Assembly: GCA_030168575.1 (NCBI GenBank)
Contig: CP115555.1
Location: forward strand, 1,364,001 to 1,428,000
Length of the DNA: 64,000 nucleotides
Direction: 5' to 3'
DNA from: Methanomassiliicoccales archaeon LGM-RCC1
GTDB taxonomy: Archaea; Thermoplasmatota; Thermoplasmata; Methanomassiliicoccales; Methanomethylophilaceae
In this document: one piece after another, positions 10,945-32,785 of the stretch
Layout of the letters: each line of letters begins with the position of its first letter
Numbering within the stretch: position 1 is the stretch's first letter
The notes under the pieces: generated by a model
What the model was told of the DNA's origin: nothing
What the model saw: the letters and a program-made list of their open reading frames with translations, nothing else
The model's database searches: none
Program-made: the position numbers and the translations under genes

Positions 10945-13900
10945 ATGAATACAAAAGGAATGAAATTCCTGGCAGTCCTGGCTGTATTGGCTATGGCGTT
11001 CGCCGCATTCGCTGTCGTCGCACCTGCGGAGACAGACGATGCGGGTGTTAACGACGGCGTCTTCACAAATGAAGAAGGAACAACTGCGGTCGTTGACACA
11101 GGAGATATCACCATCAATGCTAATACTACATGGTATGTCCGTGGAGCAGCTTCTATAACTAATGATATCACAATCAATGATGGAAAAACACTCACAATCG
11201 CTCCGGTCACCAATACAGCCGGTACCCCGGTCCTGACGTTAAGCAAAAAAGTGACCAACCTGGGAACGATGGATATCACAGGGGATACGACAATAATCGT
11301 GAACGGAGATGGCGCTGCGATCTACAGCGGCTCGAGCGAGACGACCGTGAAGGGAACCATCATCGTCGAGAGCACTGTAGCAAATGCGCTCACGATCACC
11401 CAGGGAACGGTATCCTACCAGAACATCACGACCGAATTCAAAGGCGAAATACAGGACGCTGTAATCAAGGTCGGAGGGACCGGAACCTCGAAACTCACCA
11501 ACAACAACATAACCCAGAAGACCGCATACGCAGCGTGGATCGATATCGCAAATGCATCGAATACGATATCAGTCACGAACAACAAATTCACAGCGGACTT
11601 GGACGATGGAATAATCTATTATTGTATCCAGGTCGGAGGAAGTACGAGCCAGACGTTCGGTAATTACACGACAGTGGACCTAACCAAGAACACATTCACG
11701 GATATCGACGATGCCAAATATTTCGAGGCATTCGGACCTTACCACTTCATCGGAAAAGGATACGGTATAGGAGTCTCGGGAACGGCGGGAGCCGAGGTGA
11801 TCGTCGATGCGACAATACCGAAGGCACAGGTCAATACCGGCGGAAACATCGGAATTGCCAGCGACCTGACCATCACCAAGCTCTTCATCCTGAACGGATC
11901 CGTGACCGTGGCCGCAGGAAAGACCCTAAAGGCCGATATCGATCTTGTCGTATGGACTACCACACCTTCGCTCGTACTCACTGCGAATGCTAATGGAGCA
12001 GTCTTCGACGGAACCATCTCCCACTACACGAACAAGGCCGTCAACTCCAGTGCAGATATGCTGGTCAAGGCTGGAACCGAAACTAACTTGACAATCGCGA
12101 CAGGTTCAGTCAAGGTCACCGGAGCACTTGGAACACTCAACGGATCCAAGATCCTCGCGACCACCGGAACAGTCGTCCTTGGAAATGGAGCCGGTAGCGA
12201 GTTTGAGGTTCCCGCAACAGCAACACTCGATCTCACCGGAAATGTCACCGGTAATGTTGCCAACGCAGGAACGATCGTTCTTGAGAGCGGTGCCGACATC
12301 TCGGACCTGAACATAACTGGAACCGGAGTCATCGATGACGAGACATCCGAGAGCGACATGAAGGAGATCATCATCGGAGGAGACTCCGAGGGTAAGAGCA
12401 CAGTATACTCCGCTAAGCAGCTTGTGACTGTCAGCTCCGAGATCAAGTTCTGGACCCTCAGCGAGGGATCGAAAGTCGAGATCAAGGGAGTGCTCGTCAT
12501 CCCCGAGGGAACCAAGCTCACCGTCGAGGCCGATGCGGAGCTCGTCATCCACAAGAACGCCAAGCTGATCGTCTACGGACAGCTGATAATCGACAAGAAG
12601 ACCGAGAGCGCGGAATCCGCCGGAAAGCTCACCATCGATGCAGGATATGTCTATGTCGAGGGAACGGTCGAGATGGACGGAATCACTTCGTTCGAGAACG
12701 GAGATGCCATCGTATCCACAGTCGAGGTCGCAGAGTCCGGATTGTTCACCATCGGTGACGACGGAACGGTCACCGAGGATGACTATTTCGAATTCATCGT
12801 CGACGACGGAGGATACCTGGTCGTTTACGGAACCATGGGAACCGTCATCAAGAACAGCGGATCTGTCACGGTCGACAGCGATGTCGCGGTGACCACCTCC
12901 ACGACCATCTACAACATGGCCGCCAACGCGGTAGTCGAAATCGAGAACTACACCGTCAAGGCATCCGCCAACGGTACCGCGACACTGACCATCTCCGACA
13001 GGGACCTTGTGTTCCTCACATACTGGGGAGGAGCCGCAGATGTCGATGTAAAACTTGCTAACAGCGAGGACAAGGTCGTCATCTCGACAGGTCTCGCCGT
13101 ACCCTCTGGAGAGATCACGGGAACGGATTACTCGGTCACATTCAGCGGACTGGTAGTCAAATCCACCGTTTCCTCTTCTTCGACCAGCGATGGAAGTGAC
13201 GCAACAAAAGGAATCTACAACGGAAAGCAGTATTCGAAGGCACTCGTCGTCGAAGGACTGACTTCGGTCGACTACACCTATATCGGGAACACGACCGGAA
13301 GGACCGACCTCACAGCACAGGCCACGGTGTCCACATACACCGATGCCGGTGACAACAAAAAATACTGTGCGGTCAAGGTTGTTGGAGCCATCCTCATCGG
13401 CGACAACGTCACGATCGCCAACACGCGGGGTCTCCTCACCGTTACCGGAACCATCACAAACGAGTCCTCGGCAGGACTGTTCACCAACGCCGCCAAGATC
13501 ACCGTATCGAACGACGGAGCCATCTCCCTTCTCGGTTCTTCCATCAATTCCGAGACCGGAATCAGCGCTGCGAAGTTCGTCGTCGTTGCGAAGGACAGTT
13601 CTGGAAGGAACTACAGGATCTACAACTACTACTCCATCGACGGCGCCCTTGCTGTCGTTAACGCCGAGGCTGTAACTGACGAGATCGTGGTCCTCGGATC
13701 CGGCCAGACCGTTTCCAAGAGCACCGATCTGCCGTCCCCGATCACCCTGGTGATCAACACCGGTGCGGACATGAAAGTCAAGAAGGACATCACCCTCACC
13801 ATCAAGGACGGGGCCACCCTCAAGGGAGAGGGAACCGTCAATGTGGACGGAACCCTCTACGCAGAGGAGAAGGGAGACGTCAAGTCCGCCCTCACCATCG

Positions 13901-15939
13901 TCGCAGACGTCAAGACCGAAGCCCTCGACGATAAGGGCAAGGCGGCTAGGACCGGATGGATCATGTGGACCAACCTCGCCAAGGCATTATCCGATGCCGA
14001 GCCCGGTTCCATCGTCACCATCACCAAGGCAGCCGACAAGTTCGTCACACTCAGCGGAAACCTCACGGTTCCCGAGGGAGTGACCCTCGAACTGCCCGAG
14101 AACGCCGCACCTCTTCTTTTGAAGAACGGTGTGACCCTCACCGTGGACGGTATCATCATCGTCGGATCCAACATCTACGCCCAGCAGGCATTCGGTCTTG
14201 AAGCGCAGAACATGAAGCTTACCGGCACGGCTAGCAGGTACTCTTCCGCCATCGTCGTCAACGGAGCCTTCATATCCGCAGTCGCAGTCGGATACGACGA
14301 CGGATACGCGTCAGTCACCGACCAAGATCCAAAGACTCCCGATGCGAACAAGATCGCACTGCTCGGAGGAAACTTCATCACTGGTCAGGGTTACATTACA
14401 TACAATACGGTTAATACCAACCTAAGTTCCCCTACCACCGCACCCATCGCCGGTGCTTACTACCAGGTGAAGGACGGCAGCAAGACATTGTACGTGGTCT
14501 CATCGCTGTCCTATGCAGCTATGGTCAACGACTACATCGTCGGAGATATCACGATCCACGGAAAGGTAGCTGCTTCTGTGGTGGCATTTAAGGAGACCAA
14601 CTACTTCAGCACCATCACTGTTCCTGAGGATGGTAATGTCACCGCACCCACGAGCACAGCCACCGGCTGCGCAGTGGGCACATCCCTGTCAGTGCTGTCT
14701 CTCGTCCTCGACGGGGTCACCGTGACTGCCATCAGTCCCGTCACCGGATACATCGGTGACATCGACGCCACCATGGCGTTCACCGCAGTGAAGGGAATCG
14801 CGACGGATGCATTAACCATCAAAGAGAACGACGGAAAGCTCTATGTCACCGGTACGATGGTTGCGTCCGCTACCGGATCATCCGCATCGGTCTCATCCGG
14901 AACCGTCTATCTCGGAACCAGCGACGCTACCTTCACCTACACCGGAGAAAGCAACAACCTCCTCATCGAGAAGGGCGCCAAGGCCGTGGTCGAGAAAGTG
15001 ACTAGTATCAGCGGAATCAGGGTCGAGGGAACCTTCGAGGTCCCTGCAAACAAGACAGTTCCGGTAACCAACCTCATCGATCTCGGAACCGTGACCGTCG
15101 CACCCGCGACCAGCACGACCGCCAAGGGATCCCTGACCGTTACCAACCTCTACATCGGTGCGGACGCTGCACCCAAGAATGCGAAGACCTTCGCCACCGC
15201 AGCTTTCAACGGGCCGGTAACTCTTGTAACATCAGCGATCGTCATGGGCGATGCAGAGCTCGACTACGATGCCCTCACCGCACTGGCAGCACATTATGAT
15301 ACCTCATTCGTCATCGACGATGATGTGTACTACACCGTCTATGCTGTAGCAAATAATGTGGCCCTCAGCACTTACACCGTATACAAGCCCCTCATCTCGG
15401 AGGCAGTGATCTCCGCTTGGTTGGACGAGAATGGTGATGCTCTTGCTAATGATGCATACATCGGAACCTACGACGCGGTTTATGCAGAGATCGTAACGAA
15501 GATCTACAGCGTGACCGTCATCACCGACTCCGGAATCAAGTCCGTCGCCATCGACGGAATCGAGATGGTAAGGCAGTCCGGAACGAACATCTTCACCATG
15601 GGAATGACCAATGGTGATTACACGGACACCCTCTCCAAACTGAAGACGGGCACCTACAAGATCACCTACACCCTGTACAGCACTTACCAGGAGGACAACA
15701 ACGGAGTCATCCTGTACACTGCTGACGGTACGATCCTGAAGGACATGAAGTTCTCTGCTTCCGGTGCATCCGATTACAAGACCGTCTCTCTCCAGTTGAA
15801 CGGAACCGAGCTCATCCCCGAGCCCGCTCCCGAGGAGCAGCAGTCCGAGTGGACCATCACCACCATCCTGCTCGTCATCCTCGTGATCCTGATCGCCGTC
15901 ATGGCAGTCATCGTCGCATTGAGACTCAACAGGAGCTGA
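10945..15939 (+). CDS. Large secreted, membrane-anchored adhesin-like surface protein
   Basis: 1664-aa protein with an N-terminal signal peptide (hydrophobic LAVLAVLAMAFAAFAVVAP, residues ~9-27), a very long extracellular part and a C-terminal membrane anchor (TTILLVILVILIAVMAVIVA followed by LRLNRS), preceded by a Pro/Glu-rich linker PEPAPEEQQSE. The ectodomain is rich in Thr, Ser, Gly and Val with recurring short strands such as LTVPEGVTLELPENA, GKLTIDAGYVYVEGTVEM and KTLTIAP, suggesting parallel beta-helix repeats. Such proteins are abundant in gut Methanomassiliicoccales and are presumed to contact host or partner cells. Composition differs from neighbours because of the repeats. A strong hairpin terminator follows. 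Binding partner unknown. Confidence 0.85.
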   Translation: MNTKGMKFLAVLAVLAMAFAAFAVVAPAETDDAGVNDGVFTNEEGTTAVVDTGDITINANTTWYVRGAASITNDITINDGKTLTIAPVTNTAGTPVLTLSKKVTNLGTMDITGDTTIIVNGDGAAIYSGSSETTVKGTIIVESTVANALTITQGTVSYQNITTEFKGEIQDAVIKVGGTGTSKLTNNNITQKTAYAAWIDIANASNTISVTNNKFTADLDDGIIYYCIQVGGSTSQTFGNYTTVDLTKNTFTDIDDAKYFEAFGPYHFIGKGYGIGVSGTAGAEVIVDATIPKAQVNTGGNIGIASDLTITKLFILNGSVTVAAGKTLKADIDLVVWTTTPSLVLTANANGAVFDGTISHYTNKAVNSSADMLVKAGTETNLTIATGSVKVTGALGTLNGSKILATTGTVVLGNGAGSEFEVPATATLDLTGNVTGNVANAGTIVLESGADISDLNITGTGVIDDETSESDMKEIIIGGDSEGKSTVYSAKQLVTVSSEIKFWTLSEGSKVEIKGVLVIPEGTKLTVEADAELVIHKNAKLIVYGQLIIDKKTESAESAGKLTIDAGYVYVEGTVEMDGITSFENGDAIVSTVEVAESGLFTIGDDGTVTEDDYFEFIVDDGGYLVVYGTMGTVIKNSGSVTVDSDVAVTTSTTIYNMAANAVVEIENYTVKASANGTATLTISDRDLVFLTYWGGAADVDVKLANSEDKVVISTGLAVPSGEITGTDYSVTFSGLVVKSTVSSSSTSDGSDATKGIYNGKQYSKALVVEGLTSVDYTYIGNTTGRTDLTAQATVSTYTDAGDNKKYCAVKVVGAILIGDNVTIANTRGLLTVTGTITNESSAGLFTNAAKITVSNDGAISLLGSSINSETGISAAKFVVVAKDSSGRNYRIYNYYSIDGALAVVNAEAVTDEIVVLGSGQTVSKSTDLPSPITLVINTGADMKVKKDITLTIKDGATLKGEGTVNVDGTLYAEEKGDVKSALTIVADVKTEALDDKGKAARTGWIMWTNLAKALSDAEPGSIVTITKAADKFVTLSGNLTVPEGVTLELPENAAPLLLKNGVTLTVDGIIIVGSNIYAQQAFGLEAQNMKLTGTASRYSSAIVVNGAFISAVAVGYDDGYASVTDQDPKTPDANKIALLGGNFITGQGYITYNTVNTNLSSPTTAPIAGAYYQVKDGSKTLYVVSSLSYAAMVNDYIVGDITIHGKVAASVVAFKETNYFSTITVPEDGNVTAPTSTATGCAVGTSLSVLSLVLDGVTVTAISPVTGYIGDIDATMAFTAVKGIATDALTIKENDGKLYVTGTMVASATGSSASVSSGTVYLGTSDATFTYTGESNNLLIEKGAKAVVEKVTSISGIRVEGTFEVPANKTVPVTNLIDLGTVTVAPATSTTAKGSLTVTNLYIGADAAPKNAKTFATAAFNGPVTLVTSAIVMGDAELDYDALTALAAHYDTSFVIDDDVYYTVYAVANNVALSTYTVYKPLISEAVISAWLDENGDALANDAYIGTYDAVYAEIVTKIYSVTVITDSGIKSVAIDGIEMVRQSGTNIFTMGMTNGDYTDTLSKLKTGTYKITYTLYSTYQEDNNGVILYTADGTILKDMKFSASGASDYKTVSLQLNGTELIPEPAPEEQQSEWTITTILLVILVILIAVMAVIVALRLNRS

Positions 15940-18649: not shown

Positions 18650-21277
18650 ATGAGATGCACCAAGAGCATAGACGAACTCTACGAGGAGGTCAGGGACTTC
18701 GATCTGGTCATCACCACCGATGCCGCCCTGGCCACTGCCCTGAACGGCAGGATCGACAGGCCCATAATTGGGCATTTCGCCATGACGCCCAAACAGATAG
18801 CCGCTCACGTGGCATCCAGGGTCATGGGCGTCCCCCTTTACTCCGAACTAAAGGTCATCTCCACTGTATCGGCCGAGACCGGCCTCAGCATGAAGTACGT
18901 CCACAGCGAGATCGAGAATATCAAAGAGATTAGGCAATACACCAAGGAGGTCACAAAACATCTCCATACCGCCGCATCAAGGGCCGTATACGACTCGTAC
19001 GAGGCCATCCCCACGCTGGAGCGCGTGATGGGAGCCTTCGTCCCCGATGACGATGAATTCTACAGGGGCAACAGGGTGGCCGTCATAGCCGAGGAGCTGT
19101 TCAACGACCTGGACAAGCATTTCATCCCCATCAATCACGAATCCATATCCATTTCCAAGGATGATGATTACACCATCAACAGGATCTACGAGATCGGAAA
19201 CGACCGCCAGCTTGCGGAGAATGCCGTGGATCTGATAGATCCGAAGAAGAGCACCGATTACGCCATCGTCCTGAATACCGGCGGGCCCATCGCGGATGCG
19301 GTCAGGGCATCCCTGTACAGAGTGAATATCGGATTCATAAACGCCCTCAACGTCAGGGACCTCTCACAGATTAGGGACTACCTTCAGTTCATAACCCTGG
19401 CCATGGAATTCGATACTATTCGTGTCAAGCACGTCAAAGAGCTGTTCTCCAACTACAACGGATTCTTCAGGAAGGGCAGGGAGGAGTTCCTCCTCTGCAA
19501 GCAGAACGAATCAGACATGACGGAACGGGCGTCTGAGCTGTGGAATGTTATGAAGGCCATCCGCTCGATGACCTACAGGGATGTATGCGACATTGTCTGC
19601 GACAAGAGGGCCAGGATACAGGTCGGCATCCTTATCGAGGACCTGAAGGTGGCGGATACGAGAATCACATCGGTCAATCTGAACGAGGTGAAATACGCAG
19701 TGGACAACGTGAAGGAGCTTCACCACAACGAGGAGATCCCCGAGAACGAGAAGAGAGGTGTGCTCCTGGTCGACTGCAAGAACTCCGTCTACATCGATAG
19801 GCCTGTGGTTATATACCTCGGCATGGAGCAGGAATGGAACATCTCCGTTGTCGGCAAACCCTACATAGATGTCGAGGACGAGACCGATAAGAACGTCGAC
19901 AGGCTGAACGCATTGCTCCAGCAGGGCAATGTGAGGTACTATCTGGTCAACTCCACGAAAGGCGGCAAACCGGCGAGGCCTTGCATGCTGTTCGACCTGA
20001 TCTACAGGAAACCGATGGAATCCTTCTCTATGATGTGCAGGGAACTGGTCAAGGGCAGATGGCATAGGCCCGTGGACGAACTCATACCCGCGGATCCGAC
20101 CAAACAGGGGCCTGCGGACGACGGTTTCTCATCTTACTTCTCCAAATCATCATTCAACAACTACTACTCATGTCCGAGGAAGTACCTCTACGGTTCATTC
20201 CTCACCACACCGGATGAGAAGAGCACCGAGTTCGGTACCCTGATACACTCCTTCGCTGAGTTCTATGTATGCTATCCCGAAGATGTCAGGGAACTCGGTA
20301 TCGACCACTTCGTGTCGCTGATATCCGACAGGTACTCTGGCCTCTCATCCCCGATGATGAAGGACCTCGATGTGGCGAAGATCAAGCAGGCCATGTCGGC
20401 TATCATCGAATACATAGATCATCTGGACGTTAAGGATGCACCCCTTGACGTGAAGATCTCCGACAAGAAAAACCCCAACAGGTTCATGGAGGCTCTGGGG
20501 AAGGAATGGACCAGCTCTGTATGCGAGAGGGACATCAGGTCTGATAAGTTCCCCGTCCACGGCCAGCTGGACCTCGTCTGGGGCGGATCCATTACCGATT
20601 ACAAGACCGGAAAGGCCAGTACACCTGCGGATATCGCCAAGGCCATGACATTCGATTCCAAGGCCAGATACCCCGAGTTCCAAGCACCGATATACCTCTC
20701 GTTGATTCAGCAGGAGGTCGGGAACAAGGGAAGGTTCGACCTGTTCTACGCCATGGATAACGACACGACCGCCGCCACAGGCGAGACCCCGATCACATCC
20801 AACGTAAGATCCGTCATCGTACATGACAAGACCCTGAAGGAGATCGTCGTAAGCAGCAGGCCGTTTAGGGCATTCCTCGCCTGTTATCTCAGCAAGGAAC
20901 TCAGGAACGATGTTGACAGCCTCATGTCCGTCATCCAAGAGTTGGGCGGGGAAGATCCTGCCTATTGGGACCAGGATACGGTTTTGGTTGCAGCCATCAA
21001 CAATCGTCTGGGCATAAAATCATCTACCATCGAACCCGGTCTGAGGAAGATAGCCTCGCTGACCAAGGGAGGTATCCTCAGCTACGGCTCCATCATCGAG
21101 ATGCCGCAGTCCGAGCTGGATTCCAGGATGCAGAGAATCTCAGATATGCATTTGCTGATGATTGAGCAGAGCAAGGTAGAATTTCCGGCCCAACCCAGAC
21201 AAAAATGCAAGGATTGTCAGTATTTCTCGGTGTGTACCAAGGAGGTCATTGATGTCGGAGGTGAGACCGATGAGTGA
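18650..21277 (+). CDS. AddB-like subunit of a helicase-nuclease
   Basis: 875-aa partner of the AddA-like helicase downstream, acting in double-strand break end resection. No Walker A is seen, as in AddB where the helicase fold has lost ATPase function. The C-terminal third is a PD-(D/E)XK nuclease with D641 and D650-Y-K652 (GQLDLVW.. ITDYKTGKAS). The cysteines C508 (YYSCPRKYLY) and C853, C856, C862 (CKDCQYFSVC) match the 4Fe-4S cluster that brackets this nuclease in AddB and Cas4. A TATA-like CTTTATC lies ~30 nt before ATG 18650. The end overlaps addA by 8 nt. AddAB is a bacterial-type system, so horizontal origin is likely. Confidence 0.85.
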   Translation: MRCTKSIDELYEEVRDFDLVITTDAALATALNGRIDRPIIGHFAMTPKQIAAHVASRVMGVPLYSELKVISTVSAETGLSMKYVHSEIENIKEIRQYTKEVTKHLHTAASRAVYDSYEAIPTLERVMGAFVPDDDEFYRGNRVAVIAEELFNDLDKHFIPINHESISISKDDDYTINRIYEIGNDRQLAENAVDLIDPKKSTDYAIVLNTGGPIADAVRASLYRVNIGFINALNVRDLSQIRDYLQFITLAMEFDTIRVKHVKELFSNYNGFFRKGREEFLLCKQNESDMTERASELWNVMKAIRSMTYRDVCDIVCDKRARIQVGILIEDLKVADTRITSVNLNEVKYAVDNVKELHHNEEIPENEKRGVLLVDCKNSVYIDRPVVIYLGMEQEWNISVVGKPYIDVEDETDKNVDRLNALLQQGNVRYYLVNSTKGGKPARPCMLFDLIYRKPMESFSMMCRELVKGRWHRPVDELIPADPTKQGPADDGFSSYFSKSSFNNYYSCPRKYLYGSFLTTPDEKSTEFGTLIHSFAEFYVCYPEDVRELGIDHFVSLISDRYSGLSSPMMKDLDVAKIKQAMSAIIEYIDHLDVKDAPLDVKISDKKNPNRFMEALGKEWTSSVCERDIRSDKFPVHGQLDLVWGGSITDYKTGKASTPADIAKAMTFDSKARYPEFQAPIYLSLIQQEVGNKGRFDLFYAMDNDTTAATGETPITSNVRSVIVHDKTLKEIVVSSRPFRAFLACYLSKELRNDVDSLMSVIQELGGEDPAYWDQDTVLVAAINNRLGIKSSTIEPGLRKIASLTKGGILSYGSIIEMPQSELDSRMQRISDMHLLMIEQSKVEFPAQPRQKCKDCQYFSVCTKEVIDVGGETDE

Positions 21278-24155
21278 GCTGAACCCCTCCCAACAGAGGA
21301 TCGCGGACACCCACGAGGGAATGATTGTCGTCGATGCCGGTCCCGGTACCGGGAAAACGCATACCATAGTGGAGCGCTACATCAGCATGATCTCTAGGCA
21401 GGACATATCCCCGAAGGATGTCCTCCTGCTAACCTTCACGAACAATGCCGCGGCGGAGATGGAAGAACGCATAAAGAGGCGTATGACCGAGAAGGGCATG
21501 GAGAGGGATTCCAAGCTTGTCATGACCAAGACCTTTGACGCATTCTGTCTGTCGATAGTTATGGATTCCCCTGACGAGATCAGCGAATTCTTCGGCTTCA
21601 AGGAGAAGCTTACCAGATCGGCATACATGCAGGAGAACGACTCCCTGAACAGGGACTACTTCCATCGTTTCTTCGACGGTTTCCTTAGCAGCAAGGGTTC
21701 CGACTACGGTGATATTGCCGTCATAGCCAGCGAGAACCCGGAATCCCTGATGGACCTCATCGAGAACCTGATGTCTCGCGGTCTCATCCCACTGAGCAAA
21801 GGATGGTTCGGCAACCACGCCGACCGCATCCTGGAGGGGGATACGGAACAGATACTCGAACTCCTGAGGGCCAACAACTCCGTGACCGCCAGGGGCAAAT
21901 GCCTCAACGTCAACGCGTTGTCCAAGATCGATGACGACCAGGGATACAATGTCCCCGGGAGGAACGACGGCGGCAACATCGACGGATCGTTTCTTGAGGA
22001 ATCCGCAAGTGAGAACAGGACAGAGCTTTACAGGTTCGTCCACGACGTCTATTATGATTACATCAAACAGTCGATCACCGACAACCGCCTGACCTTCCAT
22101 CTGGTGGCCATCCTCGCGTTCACTGTGCTGTACAGACAGAGGAACGTCAGGGAAAGGAACTCCTTCCGCTACCTGATGGTGGATGAATTCCAGGACACCA
22201 ACGCCAACCAGTTGATGATCTCCCTGATGATCCTGAAGGAGCCCAACCTCTGCGTTGTCGGGGATTGGAAGCAGGGGATCTACGGCTTCAGGTACGTCTC
22301 CATAGAGAACATCACCAGATTCGAGGAAAAGACGGTAGAGTACAGGAGATTCCTGAACATAGGCGATAAGAGGGTCGGTTTCTCCATCCCCGAGGCTGTT
22401 AAGCTCCCTCTGGACGTCAACTACCGTTCTTCCCAGGAGATCATAGATACCGCATTCGAGTGCATCTGCCTCCCGGGTTCGAACGATGATGTCATCGGCT
22501 AGGAACAGCTGAAGGAGGACGTCGTCCTCATCCAGGCAGGAAGGGAGGACATCGGTGACTGCAAGGGCATCCGTTTTGTCCAGTCCGAATCGAAGGATGA
22601 TGAGGTCACGGACACAGTTCGTGCCATCAAGGAATACGTTTTCTCCAGGAAATACGCCGTCAGGGACGGTGAGACCTCCAGGAACGTGGGCTTCGGTGAC
22701 ATAGCGGTCATCTGCCGCAAGACCGAGCACTGCAGGATGATTAGGGACGCCTGCGAGGCGGAGGGGATCCCCGCCTATCTCCAGGGGGATGTGCAGATAA
22801 TGTCCACGCGCGAAGGGAAGCTGGCCCTCGCATGGCTGAGATATGTAAACAACGAGCGCGATCCATGGGCTTTCGTCCCCATAATGGCCGATATGGACTA
22901 CACACCTGTGCAGATCAGGTCAGCCGTGAAGAACCCCGATCTGATCCCCAAGATCCTAGTCGAACAGAGGGATGAGCTCTATAAGAAACGCCGCCGCATC
23001 ACGGATCTTCTCACAAGCCTGTTCCAGTTCTACAGCCTGGACAATGATGTCACCCAGGCCATCATTTCGACCGTGTCTTCCGTGCACAGGGGCACCCTGC
23101 TCACGATCTCCGATGTCATAAGGATAATCGACGACGACATCGAGAATGGTTCCACATATCCGGTCGAGAATCTCATCGACACCAAAGCGGTCACTATCAT
23201 GACCATGCACAAATCCAAGGGTCTGGAGTTCCCAGTTGTCATCACCCCGTTCATAGATTCCGGCGTGATGCCCAGCACCAACAGGGATTCGGGAACGTTC
23301 TTCTTCGACGACACCCTCGGAGTCCGCTGCGGTAAGGAGATAGGCCGTTTCGGCGACTACTCGAAGATCTGCATAAACTGGAGGACCAGGCTGGCCAAAT
23401 CCGTCCTCTCCATGGACTACAGCGAGGAGAGGAGACTGATGTTCGTCGCACTCTCCAGGGCGAAGCAGTACGAGACCGTAATCTGCGGACCCAAACCCTC
23501 CAAGTTCATAGAAGGGCTCATGGAAGACGGATTCTCCGCCATCCCCAATGTGGAATACGATCCGGATGTTCTAAGAGAGCAGCTCATCGACAGACCAGAC
23601 GTGCCCGACTACCCCTCCAGACGCCAAAAAATAGGTGTGCACGAGATCCTGAACTTCAATGACGGGGACGGGACATCCAACACTATGGGGTCCGACGAGG
23701 TCGGAGGCAAGGGCATGGAGTACGGAACCGAGGTCCACAAGATAGCAGAGCTGATGGCGGAGGGCAAGCCCGTTGACGAGAGCTATCCGGAGGTGGAGCA
23801 GATACGCAAGGTCCTGGCCGGCGTTTCCGATGCCGATATCAAGTACACCGAGATCGATTGCGGTCTCCCCATAGACGACCTGAACGCCACCCTTAGAGGG
23901 GTGATAGATCTGCTGGTCCTGTATCCGGATCGTATGGAGGTCCACGACTACAAGACCGACGTATCGGACAGGTTCGAGGAGGAGTACACCATTCAGCTTT
24001 CCGTCTACGCGTACGCTGTGCAAGGATTCTACAACAAGCCCGTCGACTGCTACATCGACTATGTGTCCAGAGGCATCTTCAAGAAGATAGAGCCCGTGGA
24101 TATGTCGGTAATCAAGAAACGTGTACTGGATTACGCGGGTGAACTTAATAAATGA
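21270..24155 (+). CDS. AddA-like UvrD-family helicase-nuclease with in-frame UAG codon
   Basis: 961-aa protein if the amber codon at 22500-22502 (codon 411) is read. Before it are the Q-motif (LNPSQQRIA), Walker A (GPGTGKT, residues 24-30), motif II MVDEFQDT (D305), motif III VGDWKQGIYGFR and motif IV NYRSSQEII. After it, in the same frame, are IAVICRKTEHCR, motif V TMHKSKGLEFPVV, motif VI RRLMFVALSRAK and a PD-(D/E)XK nuclease (GVIDLLV..VHDYKTD). No frameshift or other stop is present. ATG 21270 has a strong Shine-Dalgarno GGAGGTGA at 21257-21264. Termination at UAG would leave a useless half, so readthrough, probably with pyrrolysine, is inferred; a recent nonsense mutation is the alternative. 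Confidence 0.85.
22500..22502 (+). other. In-frame amber codon in addA (putative pyrrolysine)
   Basis: TAG preceded by DDVIG and followed without frame change by EQLKEDVVLIQ, between helicase motifs IV and V. The annotated gene ends in TGA. See the AddA entry for the domains on both sides. Confidence 0.7.
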
Positions 24156-29607: not shown

Positions 29608-29907
29608 ATGGAATACGGACTTATCGTATTCCTCGTCTACATCGTACTGAACATCATCGCCTTCCTGGCCTTTGTTTGGGACAAGCACAAGGCGAAGGAG
29701 GACATGTGGAGGACCAAGGAGTCCACACTCATCGCTCTGGCCTTCTTCGGACCTTTCGGTGCGACCGCGGGAATGCTTGCAGTCAGGCATAAGACGCAGA
29801 AGCTGAAGTTCAAACTGGTCTACCTGTTCCTGGTGCTGCACGTCATCGCGATCGCATACTTGGCGTACACCGGACGCCTGGACTTCCTGCTTCACCTGTT
29901 CAACTGA
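29608..29907 (+). CDS. DUF1294 membrane protein
   Basis: 99-aa protein with three membrane segments. The block VWDKHKAKEDMWRTKESTL followed by ALAFFGPFGATAGMLAVRHKTQK is the DUF1294 signature (DK.A..G..R..E..L......GG..G...GM...RHKT). Function unknown. It is 4 nt downstream of the flavodoxin gene and probably co-transcribed. Its last 16 nt overlap the convergent taw1 gene. Confidence 0.85.
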   Translation: MEYGLIVFLVYIVLNIIAFLAFVWDKHKAKEDMWRTKESTLIALAFFGPFGATAGMLAVRHKTQKLKFKLVYLFLVLHVIAIAYLAYTGRLDFLLHLFN

Positions 29908-30836
29908 TAAGATTTGCTGACGTCAAGCTCTGAGTCCTGGTGACCCAACAAAACGACACGGCTGTCCTCTCTGGTGCGGATGACTTCCATCCCCACCAGG
30001 GGGCCCAGTTCATTAGCGAAATCCATTATTTCTTGGAAAGAAGGCATATTCGACATCGAGAGACGCTGTCTCGATCCGCCCACGAAGACGTAACCCTTAG
30101 GCTCTATGAGATCGGGCTGAGCGATGTTGTCCAGCGCCGCATACTTGTCGACTTCCATCATGTTGATGTCTTTGACCAAAGTATGCCTTATGACAGTACC
30201 CGTTTCAAGGGAAGGCATCAGTTCTAAGGTCTGCATGAGCTTCTGCCATCCATCCTTTATCTTGGGCCTGCAGATCTTACGATAGGTCTCCTCGTTAGGC
30301 GCTGCTACAGTGACGTAGACCTTGGTGGGCAGCTCCTCCAAGGCAGCAAGCCTCTCGGGGTAAGTACCGTTCGTTACTAGGAAGGTTGACATCTTCCTGC
30401 GGTGGCATTCCTTGATGAAATCCGACAGATATGGATAGGTGATAGGTTCACCGGCTAGTGAGATTGCCACCTGGTTGGGGTTCATCGCCTCCTCGAACCT
30501 CTGGCGATCGCATCTGGGGTCGCCCTTGAATCCCTGAATGAGCTTCCTTTGCTCGTTTATGAGCGCGTCTAGCATCTCCTTGGGCTCGGCCCAGTCGTTC
30601 ACCTGGAAATCGCTGCCCTGTACCCTCCAGCAGAACGTGCAGAGATGGCTGCATTCGTTTATGGCCGGGGTCATCTGAAGGCATCTGTGACTCTGGATGC
30701 CATAGAAATCCTGCTTGTAGCAGTGGCGCTCATGGAGCATGCTCTCCTTCATCCAATGGCAGAGCTTGACGGCGGCATGGTCCTTGTAGATACGGTACTG
30801 CTGCTTGATCAGTAGGTTCCTGTAATCCTCGTCCAT
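29892..30836 (-). CDS. taw1: 4-demethylwyosine synthase (Taw1/TYW1)
   Basis: 314-aa radical SAM enzyme that forms the imidazo ring of 4-demethylwyosine on G37 of tRNA-Phe from N1-methylguanosine and pyruvate. The radical SAM cluster motif is C62-SHL-C66-TF-C69, and the archaeal TYW1 blocks HRCLQMTPA, NPNQVAISLAGEPITYPYL and PKGYVFVGGSRQRL are present. ATG 30836 is chosen; a GTG at 30845, immediately after the extended rfcL stop, is possible. It follows rfcL in the same direction. Normal length and motifs. Confidence 0.93.
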   Translation of the reverse strand: MDEDYRNLLIKQQYRIYKDHAAVKLCHWMKESMLHERHCYKQDFYGIQSHRCLQMTPAINECSHLCTFCWRVQGSDFQVNDWAEPKEMLDALINEQRKLIQGFKGDPRCDRQRFEEAMNPNQVAISLAGEPITYPYLSDFIKECHRRKMSTFLVTNGTYPERLAALEELPTKVYVTVAAPNEETYRKICRPKIKDGWQKLMQTLELMPSLETGTVIRHTLVKDINMMEVDKYAALDNIAQPDLIEPKGYVFVGGSRQRLSMSNMPSFQEIMDFANELGPLVGMEVIRTREDSRVVLLGHQDSELDVSKSYQLNR

Positions 30837-30845
30837 GCTATCCAC

Positions 30846-32291
30846 TCAGAAATCGAAAAGGCTGGCCTGATTCTTCTTGCGATCGTTGGATTGCTAGGCG
30901 GATTTCTCCTCGACAGGTGCAGGCTCGGGTACAGGTTCGGCCTTCTTTGGTTTCGCCTTCTTGATTGGGGCCTCTTTGACCTCAGGGACAGAATCTGCTT
31001 CGATAGCAGCGAATACGGCCTTTACTTCCTTGGAATCCGGTTTCTTCCCCAGAAGGAATCCGAGTTCCTCCGGTTCCAGCATGAGTTCCTTTGTAACTAT
31101 GATCCTGAGATCAGAATCATTTGCGATCATCTGCTTCAGATAGGGCAGGATGTCCAGATCAGCACGCCTTGTAGAAGTGTGTAGATAGATAGCAAGCTTG
31201 AGGTCAATGCTCTTCCTGAGAGCGCGGACGCCTTTGCTCCTGGACATCTTCATCAGATATGATGGGAAATGAAGACGGTCGTGTGAGAACCTGTTGCTCA
31301 TACGGGCCGAGTTGACCCCAGCAGTCATAGTATCGCTGGCGTAGGACCAGAAGCCGAAGTACTGCCTCCTCTGAACCCTGCCGAGATAGATGTCGGCACG
31401 TGAGAGCTTCTCGTATCCGCGGACGAGATCTCCCTTGTCCAGATACTCGTAAGGAAGGTTCTCATCTACCCAAAGCTCCAACTCTGGCGGATCGGTATCC
31501 ACATCCCTTAAGAGATTGCGGGACTTCATCGCGTCGTTCGATCTGAATATAGCGGACATGAGGGCGTACATGTCGTTGCGCTTGTCACGGGTGGAGAGGT
31601 CCTCGGCCATCGCAGCAGTCACGTGTGTCTGGCCGAGCGATAGCGCCTCCAGATTACGGACGGCTGCACGCATATCCCCGTTGGCCTTCTCAGCGATCAT
31701 CGTCATTGCATCGGGATCTACTTCGATACCCTCTGCCTCGGCGATCTTGTATAGTGCCTTGGCCATGGAAACGGCCTTGGGCTTTTGGAAAGTTATCTGG
31801 AGCGTATCGGTCTTGGCTGCGCTGCATTTGCGTGACAGCTCGTAGTAATCGTTCACTATGAGTATGACCGGTTGGAGCGTCTCCTTGATCAACTTGGTGA
31901 TGACGGGGATCGCGCCCCTGTCCACATTGCCGAAGAAGTTATCGGCCTCGTCCAGGATGATCAGCTTGCGCTGCCCTTTGCCCGTATCGAGGTATTCACC
32001 CGAATCAGAGAAGGTATTGAACTTGGATCCGCGAATGGCGATGTTCTCGATGGCATCCCCCGTACGCTGGTCCGAAGCGTTCATCTCCACAACTGACCAG
32101 CCCATATCCATGGCCAATGCTTCCGCGGAAGTGGTCTTCCCTATTCCCGGAGTGCCTATCAGCACGACCGCCCTTTTCTCTGGTATGCCTTTTTCCCAGG
32201 ACTCGGCCCAGAGCCTCAACGAGCTCACGGCTCCTGGATTGCCTATGACGTCATCGAGTGTCTTAGGACGGTACTTCTCTGTCCAGTCCAT
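30846..32291 (-). CDS. rfcL: Replication factor C large subunit RfcL with in-frame UAG before PIP box
   Basis: Clamp-loader large subunit that opens PCNA at primer ends. It has an N-terminal MDWTEKYRPKTLDDVIGNP, Walker A GTPGIGKTT (46-54), Walker B LIILDEADNF and the SRC-equivalent region of large subunits. The frame meets TAG at 30894-30896 (codon 466) after a Lys/Pro/Glu-rich tail, but continues for 15 codons, QSNDRKKNQASLFDF, to a TGA at 30846-30848. QASLFDF is a canonical PCNA-interaction (PIP) motif, normally at the RfcL C-terminus. Readthrough of UAG, probably as pyrrolysine, would give 481 aa. ATG 32291 overlaps the stop of the zinc-ribbon gene (TGATG). The taw1 gene follows directly. 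Confidence 0.92.
30894..30896 (-). other. In-frame amber codon in rfcL (putative pyrrolysine)
   Basis: TAG follows PVEEKSA and is followed in frame by QSNDRKKNQASLFDF and TGA. The downstream peptide ends in a PIP box, so it is likely translated. Confidence 0.75.
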
Positions 32292-32785
32292 CACGACTCA
32301 CCTCTCAGAACGGCGTTGTAGACATCCATTATGGACAACAGGAAGATGAACATCTCTACGACTATCAGCAGCATGTAGGAGGACGAAGTCGTCATTAGAT
32401 TAGGGGCCAGATAGTATAGCATTATCGTGGCGCAGATGTAGAAGAAGGCCTTTGACCATCTCTTCATCACTATCTGTCCCAATCCGAACACGTTGAAGAA
32501 TCCCGGTACAATGGCCAAGAACAAAGCTATGTAATCCATTGCTCCGAACTTCTTGGGTCTGGTGAAGCCCATGTCTATAGAGGCGATATCCGCAGGCTCT
32601 CCGCATTTTGGACATGTCTCCAGTCCTCTGGGGACAGGCGAGTTGCAATTCTTGCAGTAAGGAACGTTGATGATGTTACCATCATCGTTAATCATAAGAG
32701 AATCCTTGACCAAGGCACCGCATACGTAACAGAACTCCTGACCTTCAGGGATCTCGTTTCCACATCCGATGCACACATGCCTCAC
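32291..32785 (-). CDS. Double zinc-ribbon membrane protein
   Basis: 164-aa protein with two zinc ribbons (CIGCG..EFCYVCG and YCKNCNSPV..ETCPKCG) followed by three membrane helices starting at MDYIALFLAIVPGFFNVFGL. That block is shared with the protein at 17584-18012. Translation starts at GTG 32785, set by a strong Shine-Dalgarno GGAGGTGA about 6 nt upstream. Its stop overlaps the rfcL start (TGATG), so the two genes are coupled. Function unknown; linkage with rfcL and taw1 gives no clear hint. Confidence 0.8.
   Translation of the reverse strand: MRHVCIGCGNEIPEGQEFCYVCGALVKDSLMINDDGNIINVPYCKNCNSPVPRGLETCPKCGEPADIASIDMGFTRPKKFGAMDYIALFLAIVPGFFNVFGLGQIVMKRWSKAFFYICATIMLYYLAPNLMTTSSSYMLLIVVEMFIFLLSIMDVYNAVLRGES

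Follow-up and report, generated by a model that had tools for sequence, protein, structure and literature searches.

A predicted pyrrolysine codon between the clamp-loader domains and the PCNA-binding tail of the replication factor C large subunit in Methanomassiliicoccales archaeon LGM-RCC1

In the methyltransferases MtmB, MtbB, and MttB, pyrrolysine (Pyl) is catalytic and conserved, and it is inserted at an in-frame TAG by Pyl-tRNA. Kivenson and colleagues (about 2025) have reportedly proposed, with proteomics, a ‘Pyl code’ for some archaea, under which every TAG codon is Pyl. Within the order Methanomassiliicoccales, Ca. Methanomethylophilus alvus has 16 predicted Pyl proteins besides the methyltransferases, with TAG making up 1.6% of stops (Borrel 2014, PMC4153887), and in strain ISO4-H5 amber codons lie in-frame in 46 genes, adenylate kinase among them (PMC5011839). 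The original prediction for the locus described here, which regarded a Pyl codon in the replication factor C large subunit gene (rfcL) as lying outside the methylamine methyltransferases for which Pyl is known, was out of date in this respect, as other Pyl proteins have been predicted since 2014 (PMC4153887, PMC5011839).

The genome of LGM-RCC1, a gut-type methanogen, resembles those of Ca. M. alvus and ISO4-H5 in belonging to the same order, in carrying a complete pyl cluster, in using TAG very rarely as a stop, and in having in-frame TAGs scattered over ordinary and core genes whose homologues elsewhere have sense codons. It differs in that RFC is absent from the genes in the main texts of those papers (PMC4153887, PMC5011839), and in that the TAG of rfcL separates a defined motif, the PIP box, from the rest of the protein while a conspecific genome with a sense codon exists. 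As in MtmB, MtbB, and MttB, the in-frame TAG is predicted to be decoded by Pyl-tRNA; unlike the catalytic, conserved residue of those enzymes, the Pyl of RfcL would be strain-specific and placed in a variable linker. As in the ‘Pyl code’, TAG behaves as sense genome-wide, a behavior read here from sequence. In a limited literature search, rfcL did not come up among predicted Pyl genes in any earlier work. Since TAG is in-frame in many genes of this genome, rfcL is not singled out, and, as a replication gene, it appears to extend the known list of predicted Pyl genes rather than to represent a new phenomenon.

The rfcL locus and its C-terminal tail

The window, i.e., the whole stretch of 64,000 nucleotides that was analyzed (contig CP115555.1, positions 1,364,001 to 1,428,000), carries rfcL on its minus strand with the following features:

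30846..32294, minus strand: rfcL, replication factor C large subunit, at full length with TAG as sense (482 codons from GTG 32294)
30894..30896, minus strand: in-frame TAG of rfcL (codon 467 counted from the GTG; the conspecific genome G054 has GAA, Glu)
30849..30893, minus strand: 15-codon C-terminal segment of RfcL after the TAG, QSNDRKKNQASLFDF (peptide identical in G054, with one synonymous change)
30849..30869, minus strand: PIP box QASLFDF, PCNA-binding motif, at the extreme RfcL C-terminus (motif in 48 of 48 relatives)
30846..30848, minus strand: TGA, functional stop of rfcL (TGA also ends rfcL in most relatives)
29892..30845, minus strand: radical SAM/Wyosine_form protein (TYW1-like), the next gene, whose GTG (30845-30843) abuts the rfcL TGA

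The true start of rfcL may be the ATG at 32291 instead of the GTG at 32294. The ORF upstream of the TAG is 466 codons long and carries AAA and RFC-lid Pfam domains (RFC1-like lid and RCF1/5 lid), and a product cut at the TAG would have the C-terminus ...VEEKSA. Around the site the minus strand reads GCC TAG CAA TCC AAC GAT CGC AAG AAG AAT CAG GCC AGC CTT TTC GAT TTC TGA GTG, and the protein accordingly reads AEPVPEPAPVEEKSA, then the TAG (Pyl, O, predicted), then QSNDR. The sequence and coordinates from which the prediction had started (TAG at 30896-30894, 15 in-frame codons, and TGA) are exact, and its placing of the TGA (30848-30846) next to the GTG/ATG of the following gene stands, that gene having an ATG three codons beyond its GTG.

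With AAA+ domains of the clamp-loader type and a PIP box at its C-terminus, the protein carries the features of an archaeal RfcL, and a PCNA gene is present in the genome. For RFC-B, the large RFC subunit of Haloferax volcanii, a PIP box at the C-terminus has been described (PMC7776575). In a search of the family, RfcL matches were obtained in 101 of 102 genomes, mostly near full length, with a paralogous or partial hit only in a few fragmented genomes, and the identity of the LGM-RCC1 protein to Methanomassiliicoccales RfcL loci was 41-99%. Of the relatives examined, all 48 whose C-terminus is readable have a PIP box at the RfcL end or close to it (Q-x-S-L-F-D-F and variants), in agreement with the earlier description of QASLFDF as a PIP box normal at this position. 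The last eight residues, NQASLFDF, are kept with synonymous changes only in the nearest six other species (G057, G058, G059, G062, G064, and G052). When all 29,328 six-frame segments ending at a stop in 464 kb of the genome were searched for the pattern Q-x-[STN]-[LIM]-[FL]-[DEQ]-[FY] at their ends, a single segment, that of rfcL, matched, and a chance origin of the tail is therefore excluded. The 15 codons past the TAG, with about eight synonymous sites, are too few for dN/dS to decide or for this gene by itself to give a strong test of selection.

At the TAG site the conspecific genome G054 (MAG SIG9) has GAA, followed by an identical peptide, so that a relative of the kind anticipated by the original prediction, in which the codon is sense and the PIP box unchanged, does exist. 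In other aligned species the residue at this site is Pro, Lys, or Thr; as this linker position varies between species, it is unconstrained, unlike the PIP box. The two conspecific genes differ at 18 of 1,449 bases, and two of these differences fall in the TAG/GAA codon. The TAG is seen in one assembly only, owing to which its persistence is unproven, and a sequencing or assembly error might be suspected. Such an error would have to have struck two bases of one codon independently, and the in-frame TAG of a helicase gene in the same window is confirmed in the independent assembly G054; we therefore regard this explanation as extremely improbable.

TAG usage and the pyrrolysine machinery

TAG usage was examined in the window together with twenty 20-kb stretches (464 kb, about 28% of the genome), with genes called by codon usage; the TAG rates are estimates, because a 28% sample was used. 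Among the 384 well-supported genes, to which the tally applies, with a few short low-scoring ORFs outside it, the stops were TGA in 338, TAA in 39, and TAG in seven. The coding score remained positive past the stop in all seven TAG-ended genes, whereas this held for 29 of the 338 genes ending at TGA and 5 of the 39 ending at TAA. The seven are two MtmB genes, the helicase, rfcL, an IS110-type transposase, a T4SS-type ATPase, and a 127-codon ORF. TAG is a sense codon across the sampled genome and, in these well-supported genes, not a terminator. Extrapolation from the sample suggests a few dozen in-frame TAG genes per genome, like the 46 in ISO4-H5.

Several short TAG ORFs (e.g., L067 493-699, L068 19500-19841, and L072 11551-12900) were left uncounted as they look like wrong-strand or overlapping calls, and so were TAGs near the first codons of ORFs (L066 4161, L077 11047, L081 12331, and L075 2568), which probably reflect a wrong choice of start. 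A short antitoxin-like ORF (L071 6940-7227, plus strand), the extension of which scores as non-coding, could have TAG as a rare real stop.

The second TAG gene of the window is the helicase, which is kept in several genomes along with its TAG:

21252..24155, plus strand: UvrD-type helicase with a PD-(D/E)XK nuclease domain (967 codons)
22500..22502, plus strand: in-frame TAG of the helicase (TAG also in G054, G050, and G062)

The UvrD_C domain match (387-542) spans this TAG, dN/dS downstream of it is 0.09-0.18, and the position is Glu, Val, Ser, or Ala in five other genomes, making it a candidate for a longer-lived Pyl position. The preceding ORF (18650-21277) resembles a putative AddB-like partner. 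Outside the window, the aconitase gene (L081 6208-8862, minus strand; G000:C1:1206208-1208862) has an in-frame TAG at codon 118, inside the Pfam domain, where all compared relatives have Lys (AAG/AAA). The aconitase of G050 has a different TAG, at a position that is Glu in the closest relatives.

TAG codons were found in rfcL elsewhere in the family as well. In G058 a TAG lies near codon 402, at a position that is Glu in seven of nine aligned relatives, with everything downstream in the protein, the PIP box included, intact, and in G028 a TAG lies at codon 202 (L086), where eight of the ten genomes compared have Glu, again with intact downstream sequence. PylS was found in G058, and it was not found in G028, a genome that is 84% complete. 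In five genomes of the sister genus g8 (L038, L086, L090, L099, and L102), the rfcL stop is a TAG directly after the PIP box (SLFQF-TAG); TAG may still terminate rfcL in this genus, though PylS is present in most of its genomes. We considered this arrangement as a counterexample and set it aside, as that TAG is located after the PIP box and just before the start of the next gene and does not speak against TAG being sense in LGM-RCC1.

The pyl cluster of LGM-RCC1, for which a genome search had been proposed, is complete: tRNA-Pyl (CTA anticodon) is followed by PylS, PylB, PylC, and PylD at G000:C1 1290439-1294378, about 70 kb from the window (PylS was identified by model; for PylB, PylC, and PylD, the sequence and the gene order served as evidence). 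Adjoining the cluster are two mtmB genes, each with the in-frame TAG that is canonical for them. No second CUA anticodon was found among the resolved tRNAs, a list that is incomplete in that the search missed tRNA-Trp and tRNA-Tyr. A single aRF1 was found, with its NIKS and GGQ motifs kept. The window also holds a Pelota-like gene.

Decoding of the rfcL TAG

Taken together, these data make it highly likely that UAG is a genome-wide Pyl sense codon and that the rfcL TAG is read through to a full-length RfcL with its PIP tail. As pylTSBCD is present and no other CUA tRNA is among those found, the residue inserted at the rfcL UAG is, as judged from sequence, almost certainly Pyl. The central proposal of the original prediction, that UAG is probably decoded as Pyl in a core replication gene, is thus supported at this level by the pyl genes, the tRNA list, and the sense codon and tail in relatives.

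Alternatively, the TAG might be a recent nonsense mutation at which rfcL terminates in this strain; RfcL would then have lost its last 15 residues, with the PIP box still present in the sequence only because the mutation is young. The restriction of the TAG to one strain within the species would leave little time for the tail to decay, and aRF1 looks able to terminate at UAG; nevertheless, TAG is sense elsewhere in the genome, including in aconitase, the helicase, and MtmB, and the PIP box is kept universally in the family, which makes such a truncation improbable. The canonical aRF1 offers no reason why termination at UAG should have been lost, and part of the RfcL may for this reason be truncated.

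The TAG could also be leaky, such that the supply of Pyl (i.e., the methylamine state) would set how much RfcL is made with the PIP box relative to RfcL lacking it and act as a switch on clamp loading. As the site lies after the folded part and before the PIP box, exactly two forms would result, and aRF1 is present to compete. If this were true, scarce Pyl would give RfcL without its PCNA-binding tail, and replication would be tied to methylamine availability in this strain. The site, however, is unconserved, since the conspecific has GAA and other relatives have various sense codons, and the TAGs of other genes lie at unrelated places, which fits drift; we consider a switch of this kind very improbable.

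Under the preferred reading, in which UAG is read as Pyl throughout the genome, a Glu codon of rfcL, located in the variable linker that joins the folded domains to the PIP box, would have changed to TAG, probably by the path GAA to GAG to TAG, GAG being one base from TAG. Other TAGs replace Glu or Lys, with which such a path is consistent. Pyl-tRNA(CUA) would then read the rfcL UAG to give a 482-residue RfcL with Pyl467 and the tail QASLFDF, stopping at TGA; Pyl467 would sit in the flexible linker with the PIP box intact. We propose that the TAG is tolerated because UAG is efficiently decoded, and, as UAG is effectively sense here, drift from Glu to TAG is the simplest account of rfcL. Pyl probably has no special role in RfcL and is a neutral replacement of Glu; both the near-complete decoding of this UAG and the neutrality of the position are what we infer.

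On this reading, the working C-terminus of a presumably essential replication protein would depend on UAG being decoded as Pyl, and the conspecific with Glu would serve as a natural control. The gene would exemplify the entry of Pyl codons into core genes by apparent drift, as is expected once UAG is sense. In this group, standard gene callers cut off functional tails (e.g., the RfcL PIP box) and split genes (e.g., the helicase).

Elsewhere in the window (10945-15939, plus strand), a very long, repetitive ORF (1664 aa) looks secreted: its N-terminus is signal-like, and a transmembrane stretch lies at the C-terminal end. It resembles the adhesin-like proteins of gut methanogens.
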